DNA of 25,972 bases, taken from positions 1 through 25,972 of the IMG/VR virus record IMGVR_UViG_3300032087_000502; one strand, given 5' to 3'. A model generated the notes under the pieces. It did no database searches, was not told the origin of the DNA, and saw nothing but the letters and a program-made list of their open reading frames with translations. Of this stretch, positions 5,042 to 25,972 are shown piece after piece. How positions within the stretch are numbered: position 1 is the first letter of the stretch; every line of letters starts with the position of its first letter. This DNA is from a virus. The position numbers and the translations under genes are program-made.

Positions 5042-5217
5042 AGTCACCCTGCACAAAGGTTTGTAAAATAGAAAACGGAGTGTGCATTGGATGTGGAAGA
5101 AATCTAAACGAAATCAGTAACTGGTCTAAATACACAACCGAAGAAAGGAGTAAGATCATTGGACGCCTATCAACAATACATTCACAAAAGCCGATACGCT
5201 CGCTACCTTCCAAGTGA
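5038..5217 (+). CDS. DUF1289 family Cys4 protein (59 aa)
   Basis: The N-terminal 44 residues match DUF1289: SPCTKVC (C5, C9), GVCIGCGR (C16, C19), then the typical LNEISNWSKYTTEERSKII helix. The C-x3-C-x6-C-x2-C set is expected to bind a metal or Fe-S cluster; the molecular role is not established. ATG 5038 overlaps the preceding stop. The gene overlaps the RNR start by 59 bases (5159-5217), and its last 15 residues lie past the usual domain end, so RNR translation begins inside it. DUF1289 proteins are common in proteobacteria and I recall phage copies. The adjacency to a metallo-cofactor RNR is suggestive only. Confidence 0.85.
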   Translation: MKSPCTKVCKIENGVCIGCGRNLNEISNWSKYTTEERSKIIGRLSTIHSQKPIRSLPSK

Positions 5218-8806: not shown

Positions 8807-9073
8807 CTAATCTCCCGGTGGAAAACCTAACATTTTTTCATTTGAAATTATCCAAGACTTTGGTATTGCAATTTCTGCATCGCCTTGAACAGCTACCCCA
8901 TCTTCAACAAGAAAGTGTGGGCATATAATTATTGTATCTTTATCTTCGTAAACAATGATTCCGCATGAGACTGCCAAGGCTGAAGTAATCTTCTTTAGTT
9001 CTTCTATGTCCCTCCAACCTACGTTAGAACCTCCAGAGGCATCACGCCATACGATCTTATGTATCGTTACCAC
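8807..9073 (-). CDS. Hypothetical 88-aa protein
   Basis: It starts at GTG 9073, inside the last codons of the 1638-aa gene (7-base overlap), with AAGG a few bases upstream. Coupling is likely because the signal is modest and no ATG lies near. The protein looks like a small alpha/beta fold: IHKIVWRDASGGSNVGWRDI, then a helix, then strands (GIIVYEDKDTIIICPHFLV) and IAIPKSWI. No family is recognised. Its place after the giant internal protein and before the tagged cassette suggests an accessory virion or assembly role, without direct evidence. Confidence 0.75.
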   Translation of the reverse strand: MVTIHKIVWRDASGGSNVGWRDIEELKKITSALAVSCGIIVYEDKDTIIICPHFLVEDGVAVQGDAEIAIPKSWIISNEKMLGFPPGD

Positions 9074-9315
9074 TTGACCTTATCAGCCCAATAAGCCGCA
9101 GACATCTTTCCGCGCTTGATGTTCTTTCTGTGACGGGCTTTGAAGCTCTTGCGCTTGGCCTTCATACGTGCAGATTCACCAGCCTTTGGCTTGCCAGCAG
9201 TCTTAGCGCCCTGCTCACCAAAACGAATTATCTTTTCTTTACCGCCTTCGCAGGCTTTGACAACATGAGACTTCTTAGGGTGGTTAGGTGTGCGTCGAGG
9301 CTTGTTGCAGGCCAT
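9067..9315 (-). other. DUF6321 domain with possible internal start
   Basis: The last 82 codons of the 1638-aa gene begin with an in-frame ATG at 9315 followed by ACNKPRRTP, the N-terminus this family has when free-standing in other phages as I recall. AAGAAG precedes it directly. A separate short product from this internal ATG is possible but unproven. Confidence 0.4.
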
Positions 9316-12300
9316 CTTCTTCTTGTCAATCTTACCACCCTTAGCAACCGCATAGCGTCTTGTAACACCACCTTTAGAATATGCAAAGTCTTTACGTTCT
9401 CCACGCACCGCGTTCTTAACAAGCACTAGTGGGCCAACCTGAATAGCTTCATCACCAGCTATAATAGGGTCGCCAGTAACTCTATCAAAGAAATATGAAT
9501 GCCTGTCTGGGTTATAACCTACTTGAGTCCAATCAGGATCGTGGAGCGCCTGTTGAGCCAATACATAGTTCTCTTCATCAGACCTATTAATAAGATTACC
9601 ATCAATCCTAGCAAATGGAGACTTAGCTCCACCTTTCATAACCTTTTCAGCTTTTGCCTGCTCGCCTTTTGTCGGCATTAAATCTACGTTCTTTATAGCC
9701 GCTGTAGCTCTGTGCGAGGCTTTACCTTTGACATGAACAGTTGGAACCCACGTATCGTGATTCGTATAGGCCGGTATGTCTAACCTTAAGCCTACCTTCT
9801 GTCCATCAGGAATCTCTAGGTTAATCTTTTCTTTCTTATTTTTATCTAGTGCATTGAACATCTCATCATAAGTTGCTGGTTCAGGAACTTCTGCATACGG
9901 GCTGAGCGTTGCATCAGGCACAGGCATTCTTTCAAAGCCTTCCTTAACATTCTTTTCAGTTATTGGTTCAGCACCGGCCTTAGACAGTACCCTAGACAGT
10001 TGCTTAACAAGCGCACCAGCCGCAAAGCCTGAACGATCTTCTTCGTCTATGAAAGCCCCACCAGCCTGCTGGTCGTAGGGCCGTCCCGTCATCCTGTCTA
10101 TGCGCTCATCAGGCTCTACAGGGACTTGAGGGACGTTGTAGACTTCGCCGCCTTTACCATAAGCAGATCTCAAAGGAGGTCTTGGACGCTCCTCAACCTT
10201 TGTAAGCGGTGTCTGCTCATAAGCGTTTTGAATGCTGTAGAGGTTTTGTATATATGCGAAATATTCATCTTGCTCGTTAAGGCCTGTCTTTTTTACAAGG
10301 TCTATATAATTATTTTTTACGTAGTCTGTAAAGTAAGGGCGATTTCTGAACAAGGCTATCCGCTGATCGGCCCCAATGCCAGCCCTTTTTAATTCATATT
10401 CAGTCGCTATGTCGCCAATCAACAGTCTAGATCTACGCACTGTGTCATACAAATCTTGTTGGGCCTTGTAATCACCAGACAGCCTTCTTTCAAAAGATTG
10501 CAATACTTCTTCTGCATCTTTATTAAAGCTTGGCGTAGCTGAAGACTGATTGCCCCTTCTACCTAGATAATTTCTGGCGGCATAATAAACAGTCTCGTCA
10601 TCGTTTCTTGGGGTTATTCTAAATCCAGCAAGCGCGAGCGTTTCTAAATAAGGATCTCTTCTGGGCCTGTCAAAAGCGGCTTTCTTCTCATCAGAAAAAA
10701 TATTTCTTATGCCTGTCGTTGTTCCCGGCTCAAAGGTCTTTAATAGCTCTATTGCTACATTACCAAAAAACTCGCCTAGGGGCATTTCAGGTTCTGTTAA
10801 TACAGTGCCGTCTGAAGCTCTAACTGTTTCATCTGCTACCCTACCTTTAACAGCCCTACTTATATCAACAATAGCTTCCGTTAGTATGGACTGTTCAGCA
10901 TAAGGAGCGCCTAAAGATATTAAAGCTTGCTCTGCGGCACTAGAAAGGACTTCATCTAGTTCTTTACCTTGCCGTTCTCCAGAAATTATTTCGCCATATA
11001 TTCTTTGGATAGGTTCTTTTATAGTATTGTAAGAATCAATAAAGCGCGTGTCTATTGTCGCAGGCTTACCATCAACCATCGCATGGATTCTGGTGGCTTT
11101 AGACCAAGGCGTTTCGCTATTGGCTTGTGCCGCTTCTGCTTCAGCCTCATCAAAACCCATGAGATATTCACTTGCCGTTGACGCGCCCTCAAATCCTACT
11201 GTCGGGAGAAGCGTAAAGCCCGTCAGTCTTTTTGCACCTCTTGCCGCTATTACACGATTACCAGAATTTATTTCTTCAGCGGCCTGCTTAACAATATTTA
11301 TACTTGTCCTGATAATTTCTGATGGGAAGGCTGGGAAGTTTCCTACAAACAAATATCGCAGATTTTTAACAAAGGGAGGAACCAAGTCATAGTTTGGGAA
11401 AGTATTTCTAATAATTTGAGCCGCCCTCATTTCTAAAACTTCTTCGCTTTCATCAGGAAAAGCCTTCTTCAAAGTTTTAAGTTCATACTCAAAGGCATTC
11501 ATTTTGTAGAAATCGTCTGTTCCCATATAGACGGCTTCAGCACCTTCATCTATTTTCTTGAGATTCTTAATTGGCAACCGATCTATAAACCCCTTTGGGT
11601 CTATATTGAAATCTCTTAAAGCTCTTCTATATTCATTTACCTTTACACTGGTGTTGATTACGCCCAATCGGGTGTATCTCTGATAGGAGTCAGTTAAGGA
11701 CTTATCGTCAAAAAACCAGCCCTGCTGATTAGCAATAGCTTTCAAAGAATTTGAACCGCTATGGAAAGGATAAATCATCCCGTTCGCCAATCCAAACTGT
11801 GCTCCACCAAAAATGTTACGCATATGAGTACCTATACTGCGTACAGTTTTAGATTTTTGAGTTTCACCCTTTAAGCGAGAAAAAATACGTAAAGCTGTAG
11901 CAACCATACCATCACTACCAGCAAGAAAATCATCTTGCAACCCTTCTAAAGCCGCCTTAACTTGTGGTGTAGTGTACATCCCATCTAAAGGACTACCGGG
12001 AATATCTAACTTAGCATTATATTTTATAGACCTACCAGTTCTTTCGCTTGTTCTGGTTACTGGCCCACCACTTATAACATTCCCCGTCTTTGGATCAATA
12101 ACTTCTTTTTCAAAAAGATATTTACCAAGGGCCGCGCTCTTTAAATTCTCATTAAACCTGTTGTTTTCTACAAGCCTTGCCATCTTCGTGACGGTTAAGA
12201 TTACATCTTCAGATGGATTTTCAACCTCACCAAAAAACTCCTTGGCTGTTTTTGAAAGGTCTTGTCTTTCTAAAAGTATTTTTCTATTTTCAGCAGTCGT

Positions 12301-13983
12301 ATTTCTAAAGAATTTTAAAACATCGCCTCTAGATCCTTTTACACCGTCTAGAATTGAATCGACTATGCCTTGTGCCTCTTCGCCCATCCTCTTTATTTCA
12401 TCAGGAGTTATAGGCCCAGCCTCCATAGCTGTCTTCATCTTCATGTTCTGAATCTGCTGAACAAATCTTTTGACAACAGCATCATCAGGAGTATAACCAG
12501 CATCCTCAAACATCCTGTACGATTGTCTCAAATACTGACCAACATTATCTTCAATTGTCTTTTTAACATTACTGTCTGGGATATTAGAATTAACAATCCT
12601 AGAAGATAGCGAATCAATTAATTCTCTAGCCTCTAAAACATTTTCAGCTACTTCAACAGGCAGTCCCATCTTATTAGCTTTAAACTGTAGTGTGGCTTTT
12701 GGATCAAAATCATATGCAGTTGTCAGAGCCTGACGAACTTTATCTGTTACTTCGCCCTTCTCTTCAAGACTATTCAATGAGCGTTGCAAACGCATAGCTA
12801 TGTTTTCAGATTCTTGAATAATTTGTCTAGTCGCGTACTCTTTATCCCTGTGCATATTAAATGCTAATGGAGTAAAGTATCCTCTCGACGTAAACAAACT
12901 ACCTAAAAATCTGTTTATAAAGCTAGACTGTTGCATCTCAACTTGAGCCAAGCCTTCAGGAGTTTCTGAAAACTTCATAGTATCTGTAGGCTCTATTCTA
13001 GAAATTTGTATTTCTTCTCTAGCTTCTTTGAGCATCTTGAGTGCTTGTTCTGCTTGTTCTTCGGGACTTAATTTTTGTCCTTTCAATACGCCAAAGACTT
13101 CAAGCATTCTAGCGCCTAAAGCCCCACCGCCTTTACCAGCCAGCTTTATGCCTTCTAAACCTAAATCAAAAGCGCCAGATAAAAACATTGCTTCTAGACT
13201 AAGCTTTATTCTTTTATCCAAAGCATCATCATCTTCTTTGATTTGAAAAAACTCAACAAAGTCTTTTGTGTTCTGCTTTAATTGAATAACGCCTTCTTCG
13301 TCAAGATCAGAAACAATTCCAGCAATAGTCTCAGAAGGATCGTCAGAATACAAAGCGTTCTCAGTAATTACAGACGCCATACCGCCAGCCATAAGAGTTT
13401 GAGCAAGTTGAGGCAACTTACTTACGCTCTCGACAAAGGGCTTTGCAGTTTTATATGCACCCGCACCAACCACAAAGTAGGGTAGAATCATAGACGCTCC
13501 ACCAGCAAGAGTAGAGTATTCTTTGTACTCGCCTGTTTCTGGTTCGATGATGTCTTCTTTTTCTACATCAGCGCCGTATGCTTGCATACCTTTAGAAAGA
13601 TTATCAACTAATAGGTTTTTAAACTTAGTTACTGTTTCTTCAGGTATTAACTCACCTTCAGGCCCTTTGACGCCTATCATCTCTCCTACAGCACCTAGTG
13701 GATTTTGCCACGCGGCATTGAGAACATCTTGGCCTAGCTCTACTGGACCCATAGCTGTTCGCGCAAGGGTTTGAGTAAGGTCAGCCGCAAGGTTTTCTTC
13801 TGGAGGCTCAGAAGGCTCTTGTACAGGCTCTGGTGCTTCTTCAGGTTCTTTTTTAAAGGCTTCTAAAAGACCCTGCTCTTTAGCCCTTGCCTTAATTTCA
13901 TCATCAGACAGGGTGCCGTCATGCACAACATAAACTATGCGACCATCACCAAGTGTAACTTTTGTTCTGTATCTTTCAGTCAT
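9067..13983 (-). CDS. Giant 1638-aa internal-virion-type multidomain protein with C-terminal DUF6321 domain
   Basis: It is the largest protein here, following a 461-aa helical protein as T7 gp16 follows gp15. N-terminus: a small beta/helix unit (YRTKVTLGDGRIVYVVHDGT) then a Glu/Pro-rich linker (about 40-65). A hydrophobic Gly/Ala stretch (LAGGASMILPYFVVGAGAY, about 160-180) could touch membrane. The long middle is helical, with a conserved-looking TQKSKTVRSIGTHMRNIFGG segment. After a linker with a GKGGEVYNV motif comes a domain around 1380-1535 (LRLDIPAYTNHDTW...IQVGPLVLVKNAV), which I recall from other phage proteins but cannot name. Then SKGG and AKGG motifs and a DUF6321 domain (1557-1638, ACNKPRRTPNHPKKSH to WADKVKW), usually a separate protein. 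No lytic transglycosylase motif is seen. Likely a DNA-ejection or polyvalent protein delivered with DNA. Confidence 0.75.
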   Translation of the reverse strand: MTERYRTKVTLGDGRIVYVVHDGTLSDDEIKARAKEQGLLEAFKKEPEEAPEPVQEPSEPPEENLAADLTQTLARTAMGPVELGQDVLNAAWQNPLGAVGEMIGVKGPEGELIPEETVTKFKNLLVDNLSKGMQAYGADVEKEDIIEPETGEYKEYSTLAGGASMILPYFVVGAGAYKTAKPFVESVSKLPQLAQTLMAGGMASVITENALYSDDPSETIAGIVSDLDEEGVIQLKQNTKDFVEFFQIKEDDDALDKRIKLSLEAMFLSGAFDLGLEGIKLAGKGGGALGARMLEVFGVLKGQKLSPEEQAEQALKMLKEAREEIQISRIEPTDTMKFSETPEGLAQVEMQQSSFINRFLGSLFTSRGYFTPLAFNMHRDKEYATRQIIQESENIAMRLQRSLNSLEEKGEVTDKVRQALTTAYDFDPKATLQFKANKMGLPVEVAENVLEARELIDSLSSRIVNSNIPDSNVKKTIEDNVGQYLRQSYRMFEDAGYTPDDAVVKRFVQQIQNMKMKTAMEAGPITPDEIKRMGEEAQGIVDSILDGVKGSRGDVLKFFRNTTAENRKILLERQDLSKTAKEFFGEVENPSEDVILTVTKMARLVENNRFNENLKSAALGKYLFEKEVIDPKTGNVISGGPVTRTSERTGRSIKYNAKLDIPGSPLDGMYTTPQVKAALEGLQDDFLAGSDGMVATALRIFSRLKGETQKSKTVRSIGTHMRNIFGGAQFGLANGMIYPFHSGSNSLKAIANQQGWFFDDKSLTDSYQRYTRLGVINTSVKVNEYRRALRDFNIDPKGFIDRLPIKNLKKIDEGAEAVYMGTDDFYKMNAFEYELKTLKKAFPDESEEVLEMRAAQIIRNTFPNYDLVPPFVKNLRYLFVGNFPAFPSEIIRTSINIVKQAAEEINSGNRVIAARGAKRLTGFTLLPTVGFEGASTASEYLMGFDEAEAEAAQANSETPWSKATRIHAMVDGKPATIDTRFIDSYNTIKEPIQRIYGEIISGERQGKELDEVLSSAAEQALISLGAPYAEQSILTEAIVDISRAVKGRVADETVRASDGTVLTEPEMPLGEFFGNVAIELLKTFEPGTTTGIRNIFSDEKKAAFDRPRRDPYLETLALAGFRITPRNDDETVYYAARNYLGRRGNQSSATPSFNKDAEEVLQSFERRLSGDYKAQQDLYDTVRRSRLLIGDIATEYELKRAGIGADQRIALFRNRPYFTDYVKNNYIDLVKKTGLNEQDEYFAYIQNLYSIQNAYEQTPLTKVEERPRPPLRSAYGKGGEVYNVPQVPVEPDERIDRMTGRPYDQQAGGAFIDEEDRSGFAAGALVKQLSRVLSKAGAEPITEKNVKEGFERMPVPDATLSPYAEVPEPATYDEMFNALDKNKKEKINLEIPDGQKVGLRLDIPAYTNHDTWVPTVHVKGKASHRATAAIKNVDLMPTKGEQAKAEKVMKGGAKSPFARIDGNLINRSDEENYVLAQQALHDPDWTQVGYNPDRHSYFFDRVTGDPIIAGDEAIQVGPLVLVKNAVRGERKDFAYSKGGVTRRYAVAKGGKIDKKKMACNKPRRTPNHPKKSHVVKACEGGKEKIIRFGEQGAKTAGKPKAGESARMKAKRKSFKARHRKNIKRGKMSAAYWADKVKW

Positions 13984-15369
13984 TTAATATGGCTCAGTAC
14001 CAATAATCTCAGGTTCAATTGTTAGGCCTGAAATTAGACCACCCAATATAGATGTTCCCTTTTTAATGTAATCTTCTATATCTTCTTCAGTACCGTCTCT
14101 TATAGTAGCCGCATAATCTTTCAAAAAATTCTGCATAAATATGTTAGTAACCACATTAATTGACTGCGCTATACTCTCTTGATAAGCATCTTCTTTTCTA
14201 TAATTGCTAGTATCTTGGGCATATTTAGTATATAGCGCCATGAATCTAGCGAACTGCTGGGGTGAGCGCGGCTTTAATCCCGTAACACCCGGAACAACAG
14301 TAGCTTCTTCTCCCTCACCACCGGAAAGGGTTTCGGGTGAGGCAAGCTCTGCTAAAAACCTTTTACGCGCCCCTTCAGAAAAATAGTTTTGCACTACATA
14401 GGCCATGCCCTCAACAGTCTGAACTTCCCTAGTACCTATATGCTCGTCGTTATCGCTATCAAAAGGCTCTTTATTAGTTATTCGTTTATTACCCCGTGCA
14501 TCTGTCTCTATTTCAAGCACGTAAGTGAGGTCTTGATCGCCTACACGAGCAGTTATAATTTTAGGCTCACTGAATGCTCCTGTTGGTAGCTCTTTTATTT
14601 TTTGGCTTATCTTTTCAGCCGCCGCTTCGTTATCAGCATAATTTGAAGACAGTACAAGATCTCTGGTTCTTCCGTAAGTCTTCATCAGGGTGTTGAGTCG
14701 CTTGGCCTGCTCTGCCTCTGAAAGATCAATAGTTCCAGAAGGCCCTTCAACTTGAGGAGTGCTATATTCTTTTAGTGCCGCGAGTTGACGTAGCTCCATA
14801 TCTTCATTAGACATACCATCTACCATGCCACGCATAAAGGATGTAATGCCTTCTTGGATATTAGAAGGCCTCAAGCGTTTTTGAATTAAGTCAAGGCGAT
14901 TAGTGTAGCTTCCACTTTCAGGCGCTTGTTGAGCAATAGTCCTCATTTCTGATATCAAGCCCATCTTTTTCTTAGCTACTGTAGCCGCCATTTCATTAAC
15001 AAGCGCATCAAAGTGACTTGTACCTAACTGTGCGCTAGGGTTTTGTTGTTGAATCTGTTGCTGGGCTATTGGCTTTGCTAGACCTAGCTCATATTGATAT
15101 TGAGACATACCTGAATCCGCTACTCGCTTGTCATAATCCAATAAAAAAGCAAGGCTATTATCGGCTCCCCTAGCAACTTGCCTAGCTGACTGAACATCTT
15201 CACGTTGCATAAAGTTCATAGTCTTTTCTTGCAAAAAAGTATTAGCAAGTTTTTTTAAGATCTGAACGCCTGTCCCAAGATAAGCCGCCCTTTCTTCATC
15301 CTTACGTCTACGCCTATTTCTATCACGCTGTTGTTGAAGTAGGGATTGTCCAAACTCTTCAATAGACAT
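13984..15369 (-). CDS. Probable internal virion protein (461 aa), gp15-like position
   Basis: A mostly helical, charged protein: N-terminal EEFGQSLLQQQRDRNRRRRK with an Arg cluster, Gln-rich stretches (AQQQIQQQNPSAQLG near residue 130), then mixed helical and beta segments (IITARVGDQDLTYVLEIETD, about 270-290) and a C-terminal helical region ending in hydrophobic SILGGLISGLTIEP. It lies directly before the giant 1638-aa gene with no spacer, and its ATG 15369 overlaps the stop of the gene upstream. No Pfam family is recalled. An internal core or ejection role is inferred from order and composition, not homology. Confidence 0.7.
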   Translation of the reverse strand: MSIEEFGQSLLQQQRDRNRRRRKDEERAAYLGTGVQILKKLANTFLQEKTMNFMQREDVQSARQVARGADNSLAFLLDYDKRVADSGMSQYQYELGLAKPIAQQQIQQQNPSAQLGTSHFDALVNEMAATVAKKKMGLISEMRTIAQQAPESGSYTNRLDLIQKRLRPSNIQEGITSFMRGMVDGMSNEDMELRQLAALKEYSTPQVEGPSGTIDLSEAEQAKRLNTLMKTYGRTRDLVLSSNYADNEAAAEKISQKIKELPTGAFSEPKIITARVGDQDLTYVLEIETDARGNKRITNKEPFDSDNDEHIGTREVQTVEGMAYVVQNYFSEGARKRFLAELASPETLSGGEGEEATVVPGVTGLKPRSPQQFARFMALYTKYAQDTSNYRKEDAYQESIAQSINVVTNIFMQNFLKDYAATIRDGTEEDIEDYIKKGTSILGGLISGLTIEPEIIGTEPY

Positions 15370-15941
15370 TACTGTTGTACCTCTTCTTCTGGATTCTGTA
15401 ACAAACTAGTAGGCTCTACATCCATCTCTTCTGCGGTAGGTAGCTCTTCTAATTTAGCTTTGTCTTCTTCAGTTACAAACGGCAAGGGAATATCAGAAGC
15501 CGATATTTTTCGTAACGCATCTACTTTCTCTTTACTTAATTTAGTTCCAAAGAAGATTTCGTCTTGTAGTTCTTCCTCATCTTCGCCTCTAAAAATAACA
15601 GGCTCAACTCCTGCTCTTTCTGCAAGCGCCATAATCATATAGGCTGTAGGCTCTGCAAGAAGCATCATTAAATCTACGGTCCATTTGCCTGCCGTAAAGC
15701 CTTTAAACAACAGAACTTGAGCAACATCCATGACAGGCATATCATCAATTAATACCTGAATTAATCGCTCGTAATTTTCTTCGTCTATAAGCTGTGAAAA
15801 GATCCATTCAGAAGCCTCATGAATCGTCACATACTCTGGAGGCTGTTCATAAGGCGCTGGACTATCAGGATCAGAAGTAAGACTCTGCCCCGGAATAGCT
15901 CGACCACCATTTATTATCGTATCGTAGTATTGTTCATTCAT
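15369..15941 (-). CDS. Conserved phage structural-module protein (190 aa)
   Basis: An acidic protein whose central part (PPEYVTIHEASEWIFSQLID ... VAQVLLFKGFTAGKWTVDLM, then PTAYMIMALAERAGVE) matches a protein I recall from marine podophages in the structural block, without known function. The middle is helical and moderately hydrophobic (about 85-125); the ends are acidic and Pro/Glu-rich, as in a scaffold-like or adaptor protein. Both ends overlap neighbours by one base (TAATG type), so it is tightly coupled to the 418-aa and 461-aa genes. A small internal-virion or assembly role is inferred. Confidence 0.7.
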   Translation of the reverse strand: MNEQYYDTIINGGRAIPGQSLTSDPDSPAPYEQPPEYVTIHEASEWIFSQLIDEENYERLIQVLIDDMPVMDVAQVLLFKGFTAGKWTVDLMMLLAEPTAYMIMALAERAGVEPVIFRGEDEEELQDEIFFGTKLSKEKVDALRKISASDIPLPFVTEEDKAKLEELPTAEEMDVEPTSLLQNPEEEVQQ

Positions 15942-17197
15942 TATGAATAACCCTGCTGTCTCATAAAGTCAAAGTAGGAGTATAGGCTTGAAAGATCTCC
16001 GAAAGGCTTAGACTGAAGATCAGCACTGTAGGCCCTGTAGTATTCTTGTGCCTGTCCTGTATTAAACATATCTCCAATGCCGGTTGTAGACCCCATATCA
16101 ATTGCTGGTACTGCAATAGCGTACTGGTTATATTGATATTCAGGAACATCTTCTAGGCCTATAGCCTGCATGACCTTAGTTGTGCCTGCTTGCACTATTC
16201 GTGCTGGGGCTTGTGCTATTTCTTCTTTAGTAAGCCTGACGCCTTTTTCATAAAGGCCTTTTCCTAGAGCCATGCCCTTTTCAGCAACTGTCTCTGGGGC
16301 CACGTAAACAGGCTCTCCTGTGGTTATAGGCGCGGTTGTCCTTCCGCTCGCTACAGCCGCTGGAGGTGGCCCACTCATATAAGTTACGCCATCTATTGTC
16401 CCTACGGGGCCAAAAGGATCAGCGGTTTTACGTACAATAGCTCCTGTAGCGTCTGTAGTATACGATCCAGCCTGCACACTTTCCAGAACTGTAGGAGGTC
16501 TAGAAGTAACGCCACCTGTCGGGGGTGCCATATCACGAGGAGTAAGCAGGCTTTGCCCCTCCATCGTAGGTGCGGGGATTTCTGGGCTTGTCATAGCGCC
16601 TTCAATTTGTCCCTGCAAGCCCTCTTGAACCTGTGCTGTTTGTCCTGCCGCTAACTGTGCGGCTTGGGCAGGATCAACAGTAGGTACAAAAATATTTTTA
16701 CCGGCGGCTACTGTATCTGTCATGGCCTGCTGAGTAGCCTCCCAGACACTGCTCCAGTTAGAATCGCCTACATTAATATTCATTTTTGCAAGCCCTTTAC
16801 CAATAAAGCTATCTGGAGTAACTCCCAAGCTATTTGCAAAAGCCCCTACAGTTTCTCCAACAACTTTAGTAACACCTTCTGATACAGTACTAAAGAAGTT
16901 ACCGACACGCCCAGCAACTTTTACAGCCCCTTGGATAAAACTAGAAGCCGCTTGACCTATAGCTCCACCGCCCTGTAACATTCCTGCAAGCCCACCAACA
17001 ACTCCGGGGCTTGTGCCAACCAACATTCCCGATAGGATTTGCCCGACCCCCGGCAGGACTAGAGCAAGACCAATTTGACCAATGATGCCAATCTTACCCA
17101 TAAATTTTCCAACAGACTTAAAGACACTTTTAACGGCTTTGCCAATTTTTTTAAAGACCTTTTTTATGCCTTTGAATATTTTTTTAAAAAATCCCAT
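15941..17197 (-). CDS. Internal virion/membrane-active protein (418 aa) with Lys-rich amphipathic N-terminus
   Basis: The first 38 residues are a run of Phe/Ile/Val alternating with Lys (GFFKKIFKGIKKVFKKIGKA and onward), like a cationic amphipathic membrane-active peptide. A hydrophobic Gly-rich segment follows (IGIIGQIGLALVLPGVGQILSGMLVG, about 37-62), then Gly/Ala-rich sequence, and a Pro/Thr-rich, probably flexible region (190-290). The C-terminal 80 residues are Tyr-rich and polar (YYRAYSADLQSKPFGDLSSL). I recall the same N-terminus in other marine phages. By position and build it may play the T7 gp14 role (entering the host envelope during DNA ejection), which is inference. It ends one base inside the 190-aa gene. 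Confidence 0.7.
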   Translation of the reverse strand: MGFFKKIFKGIKKVFKKIGKAVKSVFKSVGKFMGKIGIIGQIGLALVLPGVGQILSGMLVGTSPGVVGGLAGMLQGGGAIGQAASSFIQGAVKVAGRVGNFFSTVSEGVTKVVGETVGAFANSLGVTPDSFIGKGLAKMNINVGDSNWSSVWEATQQAMTDTVAAGKNIFVPTVDPAQAAQLAAGQTAQVQEGLQGQIEGAMTSPEIPAPTMEGQSLLTPRDMAPPTGGVTSRPPTVLESVQAGSYTTDATGAIVRKTADPFGPVGTIDGVTYMSGPPPAAVASGRTTAPITTGEPVYVAPETVAEKGMALGKGLYEKGVRLTKEEIAQAPARIVQAGTTKVMQAIGLEDVPEYQYNQYAIAVPAIDMGSTTGIGDMFNTGQAQEYYRAYSADLQSKPFGDLSSLYSYFDFMRQQGYS

Positions 17198-17199
17198 AA

Positions 17200-20100
17200 T
17201 TAAGGGCCTCCTCCATCTGGGAAAAACTGATTAATCAAATCGGTTAGCGTGTTTACAGTTGTATTACTGCTATTTCCAACTGCCGCCTCATTACCAAGAG
17301 CTACTGCTAACAATTGAGTCTTTCTAGTTTCTGAATTTTCGTATGCCTGATTTATGTAATTAGCCTCATCTCTAGCCGCCAGCCAAGCATTTTGTTGCTG
17401 TTGCATAGACATAGCAAAAGCATTCTGAACATTTTGTTGATTTGCCGCGTTTTGTGCGGCTGTCTCAGCCAGAGAAACCTGACGCCTCCAAGCAATATCT
17501 GCTTGAGCAATAGCATTAGCATTAGCCGCATTGAACTGTTCGCGTCTAAAGTCTTGGTCAGAATTAAACTGATCGGCTTGTAAAGTCATTTGAGCCTGTG
17601 CAATTCTTTCAGAGCTATCAGCACGTAGTTGTGCGGCACTAACAGTAGCATTAGCACTTATTTGAGTGCTTGCTATTTGAGCATCTGCACCAATCTGAGT
17701 AGTTGTTATACGTGTGTCTGCATCTAATTGAGCAATGTTCTGTCTATTTGTTGCATCAGCATTAAATTGCGACATAGCATTTGCTTGAGAAGCATTAAAC
17801 TGATTTATCTGAGCCGCTAAACTTTCATTAAACTGATTAACTTGATTTTCGCTTTGAGCATTGAACTGCTTTGCGGCATTGTCCATAGACTGATTAGACA
17901 ATAAAGTTTGTTGCATCATCTGAGCATTAAGTACTGCTGACTGCTGACGATTGTTTAGGTTTGCCATGTCCATCTGCAAAAAGGCTTGGGCATTCTGGGC
18001 GGCAAGCTTTGTTCTATTATCAGCATTAGAAAGATCTAAAGCCGCCATTGCTGTAGCATTTTGCATAACTGCTTGTTGACGATTATCCAAGTCCTTCATG
18101 GTCATAGTTTGCATAAACTTACTATTGGCAAGTTGAACTTGTTGGTTGGCATCAAATTGTTTTATGTCCATATTGGCATCAATCTGAGCATTAAACATAG
18201 CGGCTTCTTGTTGATTTGAAAGGTTTGTAATCTCCATTTGCTGTGCAAGTTGAGCATTAACCTGTGCCGCCTGCATACGCTGTTGATACACTGCTAACTG
18301 TTGTGTATTCTGAGCAGACATATTTTGAGCATCTGCTTCATTTCTAGCCTGTAAGTTTGCAAGCTCAATTTTTTCAGCCGTAGACAAACGAGCAAGTTCT
18401 GCATTCTGCCTCAACTGAGCATTTTGAGAAAGAACATTAACTGTAGTCATTAGCTCCTGAAGCCTAAAGCGATTGGCTTCTGTAAAGTTTGCGGCATCAG
18501 TAGCGGCACGTTCAGCAAGATTTGCAAGTTCCATTTGCTGTTCATTTGCTAAATTAGCCATATCCATTTGTTGTGCAAGCTGAACATTAGTCTTCTTAAA
18601 ATCTACAAGAGTATTTAGATTTGTTAGCCTTGTTTGATTTTCAGCCGTCATTGTATCTCTTGCGGCGGCATTCTGTTCAGTAAGATTTGAAAGCTCTAGC
18701 TGAAGCTCTGAAGATAGGTTTGCTTTTTCCATATCTTGTTGTAGTTCAGCTTGTCGCATTGTACGATTCACTTGAGCATTGTATTGAGCAAGACGCGCCT
18801 GCTGGTCAACGCTTAAGTTTTGTGCGCCTGCTTCGTTTAGTACTTGCAAGTTAGCAAGATCTAACTTAGTAGCAGAATCTAAATTAGCTATAGCAACCTG
18901 TTGCCGTTGTGCAGACTCTTGAGATGCTCTTTGTTGAGCATTTTGAAGATTCTGCATCCTTGTCTGCTGTTGTAGCTGTGCGGTTGTTAATGTAGCTTGT
19001 TGTTCAAACTCACTCTGACGTACATTAATTTCTTGCGCCATTGCCGCTGTCTGAGAGGCCGCTGTTTGACGATTAGCAAGGTTTGCCATACGTTGTTGCA
19101 TGACTTGTGAAGCCTGCTGTACGTTTGCCTGTTGCTCATTTGAAAGATTTTGTGATGCTCGTTGTTGAAGGGCTTGAGCATTGCTTTGAGCAATTGGTAA
19201 GGCGCTTTGAATAATAGCATTAAACAAAGCATCCCTTCCTACTGTAGAAGCAGAAAGACCTCTTTGAGCCATTTGAGCGTTTATAGCATCTACGGCTGGT
19301 TTAGCCCATGCTGGAACCTCTCCATCTTCCATACCAGCAAGCAAGCCTTCCATCTGTGTAGAAACTAAAGCTTCTTTTGGAAGAGCCGCTACAGCCGCTT
19401 TGACAGAAACAGGTTCAGTATCTAATTGAGCCTCTACGGTTTGAGGATCATCAAGAATTGCGGCAGTTACTTCAGGAGGAAGATTACCTACAACAGCATT
19501 CATATCAGCCGCCGCCGCCTTCCTTGCTTCGCCTGTGACCGCCTGTCTAGATGCCGCCGCTAAAGTAGGAATACCTCCAATCTGTGAGGCATCCCCCTTT
19601 GGGGCTTCTCCTAGAATAGCTTCGCGACCTTCAAGATCAATTGAAGGCGCATTACCTAATTGTTGTGCTATTCCTCTTTTGGCTTCTCCAACCTGTGCAG
19701 TTCTTTGTGCGGCTAAAGCAAACTCTGGGATATCATCAAGGTTTACACCCTCACCAGTAACAATTTCCATCAAGTCTTTTTTAGTTCTTTCTGAAATTTG
19801 CTGTGCAATACGTGTGGCTACCGCAGGACTTTGAGCCTCAATAACTGAAAAACGCTCATCGCTTGTAATACCGTCAGCATATTCTTTTGCTTCTGGACGC
19901 TGTGCGGCAGTAGCCCTAGCCGCCTCTTCTTGCGCTTGATCTCTTTCAACCGCTACAGCCCTTTCAGTTAAACCCTGTTCTTCAAACTGAGCAAGGGCTT
20001 CATCACTAAGCTCGCCCTGCTCTGCTTCAACAGTTGGTACATCTCCCTCATCAATAAGCGTTGCATCATACGTAGAAGCTTCTATAGCATTAGGAGCATC

Positions 20101-21687
20101 TGCTGTTGTAAGCGTAGCTTGAGCAACACCTGAAGATGATGTTGCTGGTGTTGCTGATGTGCTTGGGGTTGCTGAAATTGGAGGCCCTGCCTGAACGCCT
20201 GTTGCCGGTCCAGTTGTCGCTGGTCCAGTTGTTGTCCCGCCTGATGAAACTGAAGATCCCGACGAAATAGTTGGCGCTTGTACATCATAAGTAGTGTCAA
20301 GAGTAACAGGATCAGCACCAGCAGGCGTTTTAGTCACACGATCAGAAATGTCTTCTGCAACATCACTGACACCATATTGTGGGCCAGTGGTGCCTGCGGT
20401 ACTAGTTTGATCAGAAGGTGTTTTAATTACTCTATCAGAAATGTCTTCTGCAACATCACTGACGCCATATCTTGGGCCACCTGTTTGTCCCGTTACTACA
20501 TTTAATAAATTAGAAGCCGTTGTTTCAGCGTTTGAGGCTGTTTCTTGCCCTTTATTTGTTTGTCCCGTTACTACATCTAATAAATTAGAAGTCTTTGTTT
20601 CAGGAGTTTCTATTACTTCTGGTCTTGGTCCAGCAGTTCTAGGACCGCCTGTTCGTGGACCGCCTGTTCGTGGACCGCCCCTTAAGTTAGGCTTGTTTCT
20701 TGTATTCGCTTCTCGCCCTGCTTCAGCTAAAACATCAGGATTACCACGCCTGAATGTTTCTAGCACTTCAGGACTCATTGGCCTAGGGCCTCCTGTCATT
20801 GGCCCAAAAGGTCTAGGGGGTGCGCTCTTTGGTGGCGCATCTTTTATATTGGCTGTTTGACCGCTCTGTAGTTTTTTTAGCATTTCAGGACTCATTGGCC
20901 TAGGAGTTGTTGTAGATCGTCTACCACCGCGTCGAGCCGCATAACGAATACCACCACGCCTAGCACCACCGCGCCCTTCTTCGTCCTCGTCTTCGTCCTC
21001 TTTTTTACTTAGATCAGGCGCTGTTACTTTACGAATATTTTCTTCTTTCATTTCTGTAACAGGAGTAGCATATACTTTAGGATCATTCACGTTGGTTTTT
21101 TCAGGTGTATATACATGGGCTTCGGGCAAGTCTTCTACTGTAACAGGATCAGGATATTCAAAACTATCCCACACAGAAGAGCCGGGAGCTTTAGGACGAG
21201 TAGGATCTTTAGAGGGTACATAAGGCGTACCATCATCTGTCGTGCCGCCACCAAGTGTTATACCCGTATTATTGCCCCCAAAAGAAACACCAAAAATATT
21301 TCCATAACCAAGCCCCATCGAACCAAGGCCCCCACCAATCACAGCTTCAAAATCTTCTTTGCTTCCTTGATATCCTGCTGAAACTGCATTTTCATAGATT
21401 GTATCTATATCAATGGTTGGGGTTTCTTGAGTAGTTTCAGAAGTATTATTACTTCCTGAAGTTGACTGACCACTACCAAAAGACTGTTGAAATTCTGCAA
21501 AAGTCCCATCAAATGAACCATTACCTTTTGCCAGTTCGTACATAGCTTTTAAAGTAAATTCTGGTACATCACTATGGCTAGGACTATGTGGCACATACCG
21601 ACCCACTTTATTTATAGAGTGTGAGCCTTCATGGTATTTCCGTCTTCTATGTCTAGCGACTTTTTTTGCTTTTTGCTTTTTAGCCAT
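17200..21687 (-). CDS. 1495-aa repeat-rich filamentous-type virion protein
   Basis: Three zones are visible. Residues 1-225: a basic start (AKKQKAKKVARHRRRK) and polar, Gly/Ser-rich sequence. Residues about 225-530: low-complexity Pro/Gly/Thr/Arg segments with short internal repeats (PRPMSPE twice, GGPRT three times, NLL(D/N)VVTGQT twice, a 31-residue YGVSDVAEDISDRV unit twice). After a mixed helical part, residues 835-1439 are Ala/Asn/Gln-rich and repeat every 11 residues without a break, followed by a 56-residue tail. No Cys-rich, catalytic or signal sequence is seen. GAGGAA stands before ATG 21687. It follows the endolysin gene and precedes the internal-virion block, so a rod-like internal or tail component is most likely. 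The family is common in marine phages as I recall, but function is unknown. Confidence 0.75.
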   Translation of the reverse strand: MAKKQKAKKVARHRRRKYHEGSHSINKVGRYVPHSPSHSDVPEFTLKAMYELAKGNGSFDGTFAEFQQSFGSGQSTSGSNNTSETTQETPTIDIDTIYENAVSAGYQGSKEDFEAVIGGGLGSMGLGYGNIFGVSFGGNNTGITLGGGTTDDGTPYVPSKDPTRPKAPGSSVWDSFEYPDPVTVEDLPEAHVYTPEKTNVNDPKVYATPVTEMKEENIRKVTAPDLSKKEDEDEDEEGRGGARRGGIRYAARRGGRRSTTTPRPMSPEMLKKLQSGQTANIKDAPPKSAPPRPFGPMTGGPRPMSPEVLETFRRGNPDVLAEAGREANTRNKPNLRGGPRTGGPRTGGPRTAGPRPEVIETPETKTSNLLDVVTGQTNKGQETASNAETTASNLLNVVTGQTGGPRYGVSDVAEDISDRVIKTPSDQTSTAGTTGPQYGVSDVAEDISDRVTKTPAGADPVTLDTTYDVQAPTISSGSSVSSGGTTTGPATTGPATGVQAGPPISATPSTSATPATSSSGVAQATLTTADAPNAIEASTYDATLIDEGDVPTVEAEQGELSDEALAQFEEQGLTERAVAVERDQAQEEAARATAAQRPEAKEYADGITSDERFSVIEAQSPAVATRIAQQISERTKKDLMEIVTGEGVNLDDIPEFALAAQRTAQVGEAKRGIAQQLGNAPSIDLEGREAILGEAPKGDASQIGGIPTLAAASRQAVTGEARKAAAADMNAVVGNLPPEVTAAILDDPQTVEAQLDTEPVSVKAAVAALPKEALVSTQMEGLLAGMEDGEVPAWAKPAVDAINAQMAQRGLSASTVGRDALFNAIIQSALPIAQSNAQALQQRASQNLSNEQQANVQQASQVMQQRMANLANRQTAASQTAAMAQEINVRQSEFEQQATLTTAQLQQQTRMQNLQNAQQRASQESAQRQQVAIANLDSATKLDLANLQVLNEAGAQNLSVDQQARLAQYNAQVNRTMRQAELQQDMEKANLSSELQLELSNLTEQNAAARDTMTAENQTRLTNLNTLVDFKKTNVQLAQQMDMANLANEQQMELANLAERAATDAANFTEANRFRLQELMTTVNVLSQNAQLRQNAELARLSTAEKIELANLQARNEADAQNMSAQNTQQLAVYQQRMQAAQVNAQLAQQMEITNLSNQQEAAMFNAQIDANMDIKQFDANQQVQLANSKFMQTMTMKDLDNRQQAVMQNATAMAALDLSNADNRTKLAAQNAQAFLQMDMANLNNRQQSAVLNAQMMQQTLLSNQSMDNAAKQFNAQSENQVNQFNESLAAQINQFNASQANAMSQFNADATNRQNIAQLDADTRITTTQIGADAQIASTQISANATVSAAQLRADSSERIAQAQMTLQADQFNSDQDFRREQFNAANANAIAQADIAWRRQVSLAETAAQNAANQQNVQNAFAMSMQQQQNAWLAARDEANYINQAYENSETRKTQLLAVALGNEAAVGNSSNTTVNTLTDLINQFFPDGGGP
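17899..18228 (-). repeat. Five 22-residue higher-order repeats
   Basis: Residues 1154-1263 form five units of exactly 22 residues, e.g. DLDNRQQAVMQNA and ANLNNRQQSAVLNAQ, each two hendecads long and directly following the 55-residue units. Confidence 0.85.
18229..18888 (-). repeat. Four 55-residue higher-order repeats
   Basis: Residues 934-1153 form four units of exactly 55 residues, each opening with ANL or ARL plus an (E/D)L(A/S)NL segment and closing with a Q(A/V)QL or ELQ plus QQM(E/D) type segment. Each is five hendecads long. They are clear in protein but diverged in DNA. Confidence 0.85.
20341..20463. repeat. Direct repeat pair, 93-bp period
   Basis: A 30-bp identical segment at 20341-20370 recurs at 20434-20463, with similar flanks. 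It codes for the doubled VSDVAEDISD unit (31-residue period) in the linker of the 1495-aa protein. The neighbouring NLL(D/N)VVTGQT segments are also repeated in DNA, beginning near 20482 and 20557 (75-bp period). Confidence 0.85.
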
Positions 21688-21698
21688 TTATCTATTCC

Positions 21699-22058
21699 TC
21701 AGTACGACCAGATTGCAGGAGATGGAAAAGCTTCTTCTGCCATATCTAAGTGTATAAATCGTCCTTTTCCTTTTTGATTAACACCTATTCTTTTTATACC
21801 ATGCTTCATGGCAACTTCAAGAACCTTTAAAGCTTTATCTCCGCTTACTGCTATATCAACTGCACAGCCTGTTGTATGTGCGCCTACGCGACTTTTAGAA
21901 GCCTCTATAGGGTGGTCAACACATCTGTAACCAGAGCTAATAACAAAAGGAAAATTACATTCTTCTCTAATGTTATTTAAAACCTTTAAAAATTCATCAT
22001 CAAACTTATAAGTACCGCAGTGTTGACAACTCAACTCTTCTTTTGTAAAGTAACTCAT
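21699..22058 (-). CDS. Endolysin: M15-family zinc peptidase
   Basis: A 119-residue single-domain peptidase of the M15 (D-Ala-D-Ala carboxypeptidase / peptidoglycan endopeptidase) type, cutting cell-wall peptide bridges at lysis. The expected zinc ligands are H61 and D68 in VGAHTTGCAVDIAV and H103 in RFIHLDMA. SSGYRC (41-46) precedes them as usual. A CxxC pair (C11, C14) lies at the N-terminus. There is no signal peptide, so export depends on the holin encoded directly upstream. The stop lies next to the GAGGAA of the 1495-aa gene. Confidence 0.9.
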   Translation of the reverse strand: MSYFTKEELSCQHCGTYKFDDEFLKVLNNIREECNFPFVISSGYRCVDHPIEASKSRVGAHTTGCAVDIAVSGDKALKVLEVAMKHGIKRIGVNQKGKGRFIHLDMAEEAFPSPAIWSY

Positions 22059-22059
22059 T

Positions 22060-22455
22060 CTAGTCTCTAGCGACTTTCTTCGTTTTCTCTACAGTTCTCA
22101 TAGCTCCTAAGCCCAACATACCCAAAAGTACTGGCATCATTTCAGAGATATCAAGATTTGGCATGACAACATCTATACCAGCCAAAGCACAACCAAAGTT
22201 CCCAATAGGCACAGCAATAAAATTAAACCCCATACCGGCAACACAAATCCAACCTGTCGCTGGACGCCATCCACTAACAAAGATGCTAGTGTGTTTAGCT
22301 TCTTCACGATTAATTGATATTTGTTCTTTAGCCAATTCATGGGCGTGTCTTGTAGCCATTGTAGAAATTTCATGGGCCAACCTCGCTTTTTCATCCGCAT
22401 CAGGAATGAACTTGTCTAAAAGGCCCGTAATCGGGCCTACTAGCATTTCTAACAT
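22060..22455 (-). CDS. Holin, GTA 3TM type
   Basis: A 131-residue membrane protein. The N-terminal amphipathic helix and charged segment (DEKARLAHEI ... ISINREEAKHTSIFVSGWRP) is the signature of the gene-transfer-agent 3TM holin family. Two clear hydrophobic segments follow (ATGWICVAGMGFNFIAVPIG, about 67-86; EMMPVLLGMLGLGAM, about 105-119), with a weaker one at the start and between, and a Lys/Arg tail. It forms inner-membrane holes that release the endolysin encoded next. GGAAGG stands about 10 bases before ATG 22455. The family is frequent in alphaproteobacteria and their phages. Confidence 0.88.
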   Translation of the reverse strand: MLEMLVGPITGLLDKFIPDADEKARLAHEISTMATRHAHELAKEQISINREEAKHTSIFVSGWRPATGWICVAGMGFNFIAVPIGNFGCALAGIDVVMPNLDISEMMPVLLGMLGLGAMRTVEKTKKVARD

Positions 22456-24046: not shown

Positions 24047-25600
24047 TTAAAGATCAAAAGACCAAATAGCGGCAGTGCCGTTGTCAATAACATACATTTT
24101 TTTGCCGTTTGATTTAAAAAATACACCTTCAGGCACAAGAGTATAATCAGTAAGACTAAAATTTTGATTGTAAGAAGCGGTAGAAACATCCCATGCAGTG
24201 CTTAAATCATATTCAAAAACAGCATCATTTGTATAACCAGTAACATACATTTTTAATCCATCATCTCTAAAATAAAGGCCGCTTGGATTTGTTGCTTGGC
24301 TATTGACACTAAAATTTTGATTGTAAGAAGCAGTGGAAACATCCCATGCAGTGCTTAAATTGTATTCGTTTACATCATCTCCGCTTCTACCAAGAACATA
24401 CATTTTAGTGCCGTCTGACTTAAAAGAAATGGTCATTGGATTAGTTTCTTGAGTTGAAACAGAGAAAACTGTTGTATGAGAAGCAGTGCTAATATTCCAC
24501 GCAGTGCTTAAAGAGTATTCGTTTACCTCATCACCATTAAGGCCAACAATAAACATTTTTGTACCATCGGACTTAAAGAAAAGACCGGAAGGCTGGAGTT
24601 CTTGGGCTGAAATACTAAAACTTCTGGTGTAAGAAGCAGTAGTAAGATTCCATGCTGTACTCAAACCGTATTGAAGAACAACATCACCAGTTGCATCCGT
24701 AACGTACAATTCAGTTCCATCTGGTTTAAAAAACAAATCAGTAGGGTTTACAGTTTGTGATGCAACGCTAAAATAATTGGTTGTTGGCGCGGTAAAACTT
24801 GCTGTAGAAACATCCCATGCCGTACTTAAAGTAAATTTTGTAAATCCCCAATTTGATCCTCCAATAAACATTTCTGTACCGTCAGACTTAAAATCAAGCC
24901 CTGTTGGGTTATTTTCTGCCTCCAATCCACTAAGATCCTTGTACTGAGAAAAAGAAGCTGTACTAATATTGTATGCCGTAGTTAAATCAAATTCATACAC
25001 ACGGGGGCCATAAGTACTATCAACAATAAACATTGATGTACCATCATCTTCAAATCGTAGACCCTTAAAGGAGTTTATTGCTGGATTAACTACGCTTGTT
25101 GATCCTATATCAAGCAGTCTAGTATACGATGCAGTGCTAATATCCCATGCAGTGCTTAAACTCCATTGAGTAAGCCAATCTAACGACCCACCATTAACAA
25201 TGTAGACTTCAGTTCCGTCCGGTTTAAAAAAAAGTCCTCGTTCTGGGCTATGATTTACACCCGATACAGTAGTTAAATTACCAAGATCTCTAGTATAAGA
25301 AGCAGTAGAAACATCCCATGCAGTGCTTAGTGTATATTGATAAAGTTTGTTATTTTGTAGGCCCGTAACATACATTTCAGTTCCGTCTGATTTAAAAAAA
25401 AGCGCCTGTGGATTATTGTCTTGTGTTGTAACCTGAAAGCCTTGATTGTATGTTGCTGTAGACAAATCATATGCTGTTGATAAATCGTATTCACGCACAC
25501 TGTCAGGATTGGTATTGGTAATAAAATATATTTTAGTTCCATCAGGCTTCAAAAATATATTTTGATTTGAACCTTGTGGTTGCGTAAATTTAAAGTTTAT
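24047..25600 (-). repeat. Ten tandem blade repeats, partly near-identical in DNA
   Basis: Repeat period is 153 bp (51 residues) in the last four units and up to 174 bp in earlier ones. The segment at 24155-24178 is identical to 24308-24331, and a CCCATGCAGTGCTTA core recurs at many blades (near 24190, 24340, 25145, 25315). DNA-level identity suggests continuing duplication or conversion. Confidence 0.85.
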
Positions 25601-25699
25601 TGGACTACCATTAAAAACAGCCGTAGAAATATCCCAAGCTATACCACCACCAGCGTTACCAGCGGAGGCTTGAATTGCTTTTAAAGCTAACCTACTCAT
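24047..25699 (-). CDS. Tail-fibre-associated beta-propeller-like repeat protein (550 aa, ten repeats)
   Basis: After about 20 residues, the protein consists of ten repeats of 51-58 residues. Each contains F-F-K-S/P-D-G-T-x-M/L-Y/F-V/I, then a turn, then (E/Q)Y-x-LSTAWDVSTASY and a short strand. The DG-x-x-(M/L)-(Y/F) strand pair resembles TolB-type PD40 or NHL propeller blades. The first repeat is split, with strands at the N-terminus (IAWDISTAVF) completing the last blade at the C-terminus (FKSNGKKMYVIDNGTAAIWS), as in ring-closed propellers. No enzyme motif is seen. Placed after a fibre gene, it likely binds host surface sugars or proteins. TTG 25732 could extend it by 11 residues; ATG 25699, overlapping the upstream stop (ATGA), is preferred. 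Confidence 0.8.
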   Translation of the reverse strand: MSRLALKAIQASAGNAGGGIAWDISTAVFNGSPINFKFTQPQGSNQNIFLKPDGTKIYFITNTNPDSVREYDLSTAYDLSTATYNQGFQVTTQDNNPQALFFKSDGTEMYVTGLQNNKLYQYTLSTAWDVSTASYTRDLGNLTTVSGVNHSPERGLFFKPDGTEVYIVNGGSLDWLTQWSLSTAWDISTASYTRLLDIGSTSVVNPAINSFKGLRFEDDGTSMFIVDSTYGPRVYEFDLTTAYNISTASFSQYKDLSGLEAENNPTGLDFKSDGTEMFIGGSNWGFTKFTLSTAWDVSTASFTAPTTNYFSVASQTVNPTDLFFKPDGTELYVTDATGDVVLQYGLSTAWNLTTASYTRSFSISAQELQPSGLFFKSDGTKMFIVGLNGDEVNEYSLSTAWNISTASHTTVFSVSTQETNPMTISFKSDGTKMYVLGRSGDDVNEYNLSTAWDVSTASYNQNFSVNSQATNPSGLYFRDDGLKMYVTGYTNDAVFEYDLSTAWDVSTASYNQNFSLTDYTLVPEGVFFKSNGKKMYVIDNGTAAIWSFDL

Positions 25700-25972
25700 C
25701 CTAAAGCTTGCCCCGCTGTAAACCCGTACCAAGTTGTGCCGCCGTCATGGGTGATAAACACAAAGTAATCAACCGCTGATGCCGTAGCTGTCAACGTAGG
25801 CGCTGTAGCACTAGGCCAATCTACTGATGCAGGCCAAGTTACTGTATACCCAGAAGCACTAGCATCCTGCACAAGTTTCAACGTAAACGCAGATACCTTG
25901 CCGCTAGACGCTGGGTTGCTAAACGTAAACGTAGTATTCTCAGTCAGTGTATGACTAAAGTTTGTACCATCA
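25696..25972 (-). CDS. Tail fibre protein, C-terminal 91 residues (5' end outside window)
   Basis: The frame is open to the right edge. The visible end contains TFTFSNPASSGKVSAFTLKL, then YTVTWPASVDWPSATAPTLT, then DYFVFITHDGGTTWYGF and AGQALG. This is the recurring C-terminal domain of many phage tail fibres and other fibre-like proteins, probably a beta-sandwich trimerisation or receptor tip. The rest lies outside the window. The stop overlaps the ATG of the propeller gene. Confidence 0.85.
   Translation of the reverse strand, partial: DGTNFSHTLTENTTFTFSNPASSGKVSAFTLKLVQDASASGYTVTWPASVDWPSATAPTLTATASAVDYFVFITHDGGTTWYGFTAGQALG

Follow-up and report, generated by a model that had tools for sequence, protein, structure and literature searches.

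The analysed window is a 25,972-nucleotide stretch of viral DNA (IMG/VR record IMGVR_UViG_3300032087_000502, positions 1 to 25,972), which encodes on its minus strand a protein with a long array of 11-residue (hendecad) repeats. A sequence-only reading had placed these repeats at 17371-19185, and these positions correspond exactly to residues 835-1439 of the 1495-aa open reading frame. The gene and its parts are located as follows.

17200..21687, minus strand: whole gene, 1495 aa (translation of the ORF)
19486..21687, minus strand: residues 1-734, a basic start and then a Pro/Thr/Gly-rich low-complexity region (translation)
19186..19419, minus strand: conserved core module, residues 757-834 (alignments of relatives)
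17371..19185, minus strand: hendecad array, residues 835-1439, 55 x 11 residues in a single register (autocorrelation and phase scan)
17881..19200, minus strand: quantised zone, residues 830-1269, from anchor PIAQ to anchor NAAKQFN, 440 residues = 4 x 110 (anchor distances in homologs)
18598..18927, minus strand: about residues 921-1030 (+/- about 10 residues), one contiguous stretch of 110 residues that the 330-residue class lacks (single-block ungapped alignment)
17860..17880, minus strand: anchor motif NAAKQFN, residues 1270-1276, end of the quantised zone (homolog comparison)
17287..17649, minus strand: uninterrupted helix of 121 residues, residues 1347-1467, mostly pLDDT 78-91 (AlphaFold2 model)

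The array gene is flanked by lysis genes upstream and by a series of genes downstream.

22060-22455: holin, upstream of the array gene
21699-22058: endolysin, upstream of the array gene
15941..17197, minus strand: 418-aa gene that follows the array gene; its product has an amphipathic/hydrophobic N-terminus with a cationic amphipathic start and matches tape-measure families weakly
15369..15941, minus strand: 190-aa gene of the conserved downstream set
13984..15369, minus strand: 461-aa gene of the conserved downstream set
9067..13983, minus strand: 1638-aa gene, partial match to the virion structural protein family phrog_22602

Beyond the lysis genes, the upstream region encodes small proteins and a tail-fibre-assembly-type protein. 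On the downstream side the family has a conserved series of genes, of about 400, 200, 470 and 1500 aa, whose sizes do not scale with the length of the array; these are probably internal-virion genes. Judged from its sequence, the 418-aa neighbour is a probable membrane-active partner. A 33-nt tandem repeat within it (17118-17188) encodes a cationic amphipathic segment (KGIKKVFKKIGKAVKSVFKSVGK), in which an 11-residue period occurs again.

Searches with the 1495-aa protein gave no match above threshold in Pfam, PHROGs, NCBIfam or PDB sequences, and profile searches of the PDB and Foldseek returned nothing meaningful for it. Residues 1-734 are likely disordered, and the length of this N-terminal part before the core anchor is very variable among relatives (132-929 aa, and 1504 in L098). 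The core module carries the motif P.WA..AV......RGLSASTVGRDAL..AIIQSALPIAQSNA in the alignments of relatives. By tblastn, homologs were found in 26 phage records, comprising the pelagiphages HTVC115P/103P/104P/033P, HMO-2011, Roseobacter CRP phages, rhizobial phages, CHOED, and Aeromonas and Pseudoalteromonas phages. Phages with this gene are HMO-2011-type and related podoviruses (PMC6918029), and in nearly all related phage records the gene is labelled as a hypothetical protein. Two scans of viral contigs yielded 103 loci, one of which (L001) is identical to the window protein. The window protein contains the core module with the RGL-x-x-S motif and ALPIAQ of the HMO-2011 gp25 family, and it shares the synteny of that family, with lysis genes upstream and genes of about 400, 200, 470 and 1500 aa downstream. 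The array protein belongs to the HMO-2011-type marine podoviruses. HMO-2011 gp25 and its counterparts in HTVC115P, CRP phages, phiM6, CHOED and Slicky01 are true homologs, alike in core, anchors and neighbourhood, but these named phages have shorter arrays, with 66-220 residues between the anchors compared to 440 in the window and up to 990 in other environmental relatives.

Distant relatives of the core were also found in bacterial genome contigs, including prophages that lack the hendecad array. Two Aeromonas prophages (L122:4794-5444 and L126:4785-5411) encode a minimal core protein of about 200 aa without any array; in an Aeromonas prophage this protein has 199 aa, and its gene follows tail-type genes and precedes a small hydrophobic protein. 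An Alteromonas prophage (L125:4746-7370) combines the same core with a different array, which has a 44-residue period and Gly-containing turns (QQFQSGENAADRSFQQELEQLR...LLDAQGEQRL) and apparently stands in for the hendecad array. Since the core occurs both without an array and with another one, it is the constant part of the protein, and the array is an elaboration that ranges from none to about 99 hendecads. Remote relatives of the core protein were seen in Vibrio phages as well.

The 11-residue repetition is real and far beyond chance. Autocorrelation of residues 835-1439 gave peaks only at multiples of 11, and the top eleven lags up to 129 were 110, 55, 44, 22, 11, 33, 121, 88, 77, 99 and 66. 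Compared to shuffles these lags had z-scores of 4.4-10.3 by identity and 5.8-12.4 by BLOSUM62, while the next lag reached about 2-3; the leaders were 110 and then 55 by identity, and 55 and then 110 by BLOSUM62. A phase scan confirmed the claim of an unbroken register, with one register across residues 842-1423. The nested units described earlier were likewise recovered: the consensus of homologs of the same length shows four units of 55 residues at about 923-1142 and, after them, units of 22 residues at about 1143-1252.

The strongest feature, which the sequence-only reading missed, is that the length of the array is quantised across relatives. The distance was measured between two anchors, PIAQ (from its P, residue 830) and NAAKQFN (residue 1270). 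Without exception the 86 distinct homologs have a distance divisible by 11, in a range of 66 to 990 residues. In 69 of the 86 it is also a multiple of 110, thus of ten hendecads (110, 220, 330, 440, 550, 660, 770 and 990), and the remaining distances are 66, 88, 143, 154, 209, 264 and 319. Counted as distinct lengths, all 15 are divisible by 11 and 8 of them by 110 as well (binomial p 3e-5 for 110), whereas no 11/110 rule was found for the lengths of the N- and C-terminal flanks among the homologs. On a tree of core and C-terminus the array changed length at least 34 times and crossed at least seven times between multiples of 110 and other lengths, with the 11-register kept throughout; the tree is a quick one, and fewer length changes might suffice if the gene has recombined internally. 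The 440 class has its additional 110 residues in one contiguous block. A BLAST alignment split them into several gaps, but a single contiguous block scores equally well or better. Each 110-residue unit consists of two unlike halves, as seen in its pattern of cap-like motifs, and this may be the reason why 55 alone goes unused as a step. In the longest arrays the protein sequences of the units share only about 30-55% of their residues, and in L011 the DNA is 46-58% identical to itself when shifted by 330 or 660 bp (somewhat less in L048 and L035). The identity between the units being this low, they must be old. We also considered the array as a ruler for neighbouring proteins, but the gene sizes showed no visible correlation. 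A length of 143 (13 hendecads) occurs at three separate places in the tree (L104, L105, L106, L108, L109, L110 and L113), which suggests either that one and the same block of 187 residues was lost from the 330 class more than once or that the arrays were exchanged in recombination.

Column statistics, pooled over the 86 homologs (30,346 residues), show a distinct chemistry for each position of the hendecad. Column 1 is Ala (37%), 2 is Asn (60%), 3 is Leu/Ala, 4 is Gln/Ser/Asn/Thr, 5 is Ala/Asn, 6 is charged (47%), 7 is Gln (53%), 8 is Gln (59%), 9 is Ala/Met, 10 is charged (48%) and 11 is Leu/Met, with large hydrophobic residues in 73%. Charge is thus confined to columns 6 and 10 and does not exceed 18% in any other column, while Gln, after its maxima at columns 8 and 7, is next highest at column 4 (26%). 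Hydrophobicity has power peaks at 2.75 and 2.2 residues (11/4 and 11/5). The dominant 3.67-residue period (11/3) of a classical single-seam hendecad coiled coil was looked for in the array and is absent, and the array is therefore no simple coiled coil of that type. On a helical wheel hydrophobic residues gather on two faces that lie opposite each other, near 42 and 222 degrees, with charge centred at 131 degrees and amides at 328, their centroids 197 degrees apart. The two hydrophobic faces are present in 72 of 72 long homologs, but since column permutation gave a non-significant p = 0.17 we take this pattern as a description.

Several lines of evidence support that the array is helical rather than disordered, in agreement with the sequence-only reading. 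Pro (0.01%) and Gly (1.05%) are nearly absent from the pooled array, and covariation is concentrated at small separations and strongest at i+3/i+4, as in helices. AlphaFold2 predictions, made for the monomer, contain helices only, with pLDDT 51 for residues 735-1495 (most of the array around or below 50) and 68 for residues 1143-1495. Cap-like motifs of the form L-[S/T/D/N]-x-x repeat every 22-33 residues in the array. A beta-solenoid, suggested by the 2.2 and 2.75 hydrophobic periods and the 22-residue units, was rejected, as AlphaFold gave no strands, Ala and Gln dominate, and Pro and Gly are so scarce; disorder was ruled out along with it by the helical evidence, and this rejection covers the array only.

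The column chemistry resembles that of a known DNA conduit. The H protein of phiX174 is a decameric DNA-pilot tube (PDB 4JPP; PMC7354561), 170 A long with a lumen lined mainly by Asn, Gln and Arg, in which residues 151-183 form three hendecads (PMC7354561). Scored with the column profile of the family, H 151-183 fits in only one of the 11 registers (+10.7, the others about -12 to -63), with modest statistics of p 0.0002 against shuffles and 0.027 against column permutation. In hhalign the family aligned to exactly H148-180, with an E-value of 0.05 and a probability of 1%, and over these three hendecads of H only. In this register Gln falls at the lumen-facing columns 8 and 4, the lumen-facing positions themselves being inferred from PMC7354561. 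Both proteins are helical and have Gln at columns 4 and 8, Ala at 1, Met/Ile at 3, Leu/Ile at 11 and Glu at 10, with an amide-rich face opposite a charged face, but column 9 is Lys in H and Met/Ala in the array. Moreover, the H tube has three hendecads followed by heptads over 121 residues and 17 nm, compared to 55 hendecads here, and it belongs to an ssDNA microvirus, with no significant overall homology. The likeness in sequence supports what may be a similar working principle; common descent does not follow from it.

The array gene sits in a cluster of large late proteins beside tail and lysis genes. The ejection proteins gp14/gp15/gp16 of T7 are likewise large helical proteins of a short-tailed phage that are encoded together and that likely lengthen the tail so that it crosses the envelope, but they contain no hendecad arrays of such length (best 33-mer scores), and sequence comparison detected no homology between gp14 and the array protein. 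Tape-measure proteins of siphophages and myophages also have long helical repeats whose number sets a length. However, short-tailed phages lack a tail tube whose length could be measured, and the length of the array does not follow that of neighbouring genes; the array protein has no match to tape-measure profiles and only the 418-aa neighbour matches, weakly.

We tentatively propose, with a probability of roughly 0.4, that the array protein serves the HMO-2011-type podoviruses as a helical ejection protein, of the internal virion or DNA-pilot kind, and contributes to a trans-envelope conduit. In favour of an ejection role, its gene lies directly downstream of holin and endolysin and upstream of a conserved set with one virion structural match; a search of the literature found no virion proteomics of the HMO-2011-type group. 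Its place in the virion, its ejection, its oligomerisation and its inside and outside faces would, we infer, be as follows. The conserved core and the C-terminal helix would frame the hendecad array, and copies of the protein would be packed in the head or tail. On infection, these and the products of the next four genes could form a conduit that protects the DNA across the envelope. Columns 1/5/9 and 3/7/11 of each helix would pack against two neighbours, the charged columns 6/10 would point outward, and the Gln columns 8/4 would line the inside as in the decameric phiX174 H tube. Only multiples of 11 would survive since the register is fixed, and the usual step would be 110 because the two 55-residue halves differ. 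Against a tube, the two hydrophobic seams are almost opposite and indicate no clear subunit number. A straight helix would also be far longer than the envelope, at about 90 nm for 605 residues and up to 160 nm for the roughly 1085 residues of L011. The 90 nm that the sequence-only reading gave for a single helix should not be taken as established, as the confidently predicted helix spans only 121 residues near the C-terminus and the cap-like motifs and Gly-containing prophage repeats would suit hairpins. Its envelope-spanning conduit is plausible from the gene position and the resemblance to the H tube, and stands as a proposal.

An ejection or internal-core protein whose array is a stack or bundle of helical hairpins (22-/33-residue helices, two hairpins per 110) instead of continuous tube helices is possible but doubtful. 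It would remove the length problem of straight helices of 90-160 nm, and it agrees with the 22/33 spacing of the cap-like motifs, near which AlphaFold breaks the helices (at low confidence) and around which the scarce Gly favours columns 10, 4 and 3; the Gly-containing turns of the Alteromonas array point the same way. However, the array contains essentially no Pro and, at column 2, almost no Gly, helix propensity has no systematic 55-periodic dip, indels in any supposed loop are only multiples of 11 across the 86 homologs, and no clear long-range covariation appeared in these few sequences. Tail fibres often contain long coiled coils made of repeats, and genes of fibre and fibre-assembly type lie upstream, so that an external coiled-coil fibre, whisker or tail needle has to be weighed too. 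We consider it improbable: the first helical harmonic is weak (1.85, against 8.35 for the second), unlike in a single-seam dimer or trimer, the gene is co-located with the probable internal-protein set, and neither end has a receptor-binding or collar-type domain in family and PDB searches.

The 110-residue quantisation could also be a mere by-product of recombination between 330-bp repeats, without structural meaning. Repeat arrays commonly change by whole units, and the extra 110 residues are indeed contiguous. Still, because the units are old (46-58% nucleotide identity in L011), unequal crossing-over would be expected to join them only seldom and would often break the register, and yet all of the at least 34 changes, seven of them crossing between 110-multiples and other lengths, kept the 11-register. 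This explanation, which we regard as somewhat unlikely, touches the 110 step alone and is compatible with any functional reading; the likelihoods given to these alternatives are not exclusive.

Within the preferred conduit reading, a more specific form appears rather unlikely at present: a helical DNA conduit with an amide lining, which abundant dsDNA podoviruses would build on the 11-residue plan of the phiX174 pilot tube and whose length would evolve by ten-hendecad modules (about 16.5 nm each if fully extended) as a modular pipe or ruler. To our knowledge such a conduit was not previously described in short-tailed phages. If the H-like tube is true, unrelated phages with ssDNA and with dsDNA would be linked by one helical design of their DNA conduits. 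The tight quantisation of length in 11s and 110s is in any case a directly testable structural rule.

Elsewhere in the window, a 561-aa ORF (24047-25732) contains 153-nt tandem repeats (51 aa) at 24155-24533. It matches beta-propeller families (SGL, WDR36 first propeller), and one gene of the relative L031 carries the annotation WD40 repeat protein. Lastly, a 619-aa ribonucleotide reductase of Class II (B12-dependent) is encoded at 5159-7018, and upstream of it are genes for a Cas4-domain exonuclease and a family A DNA polymerase.
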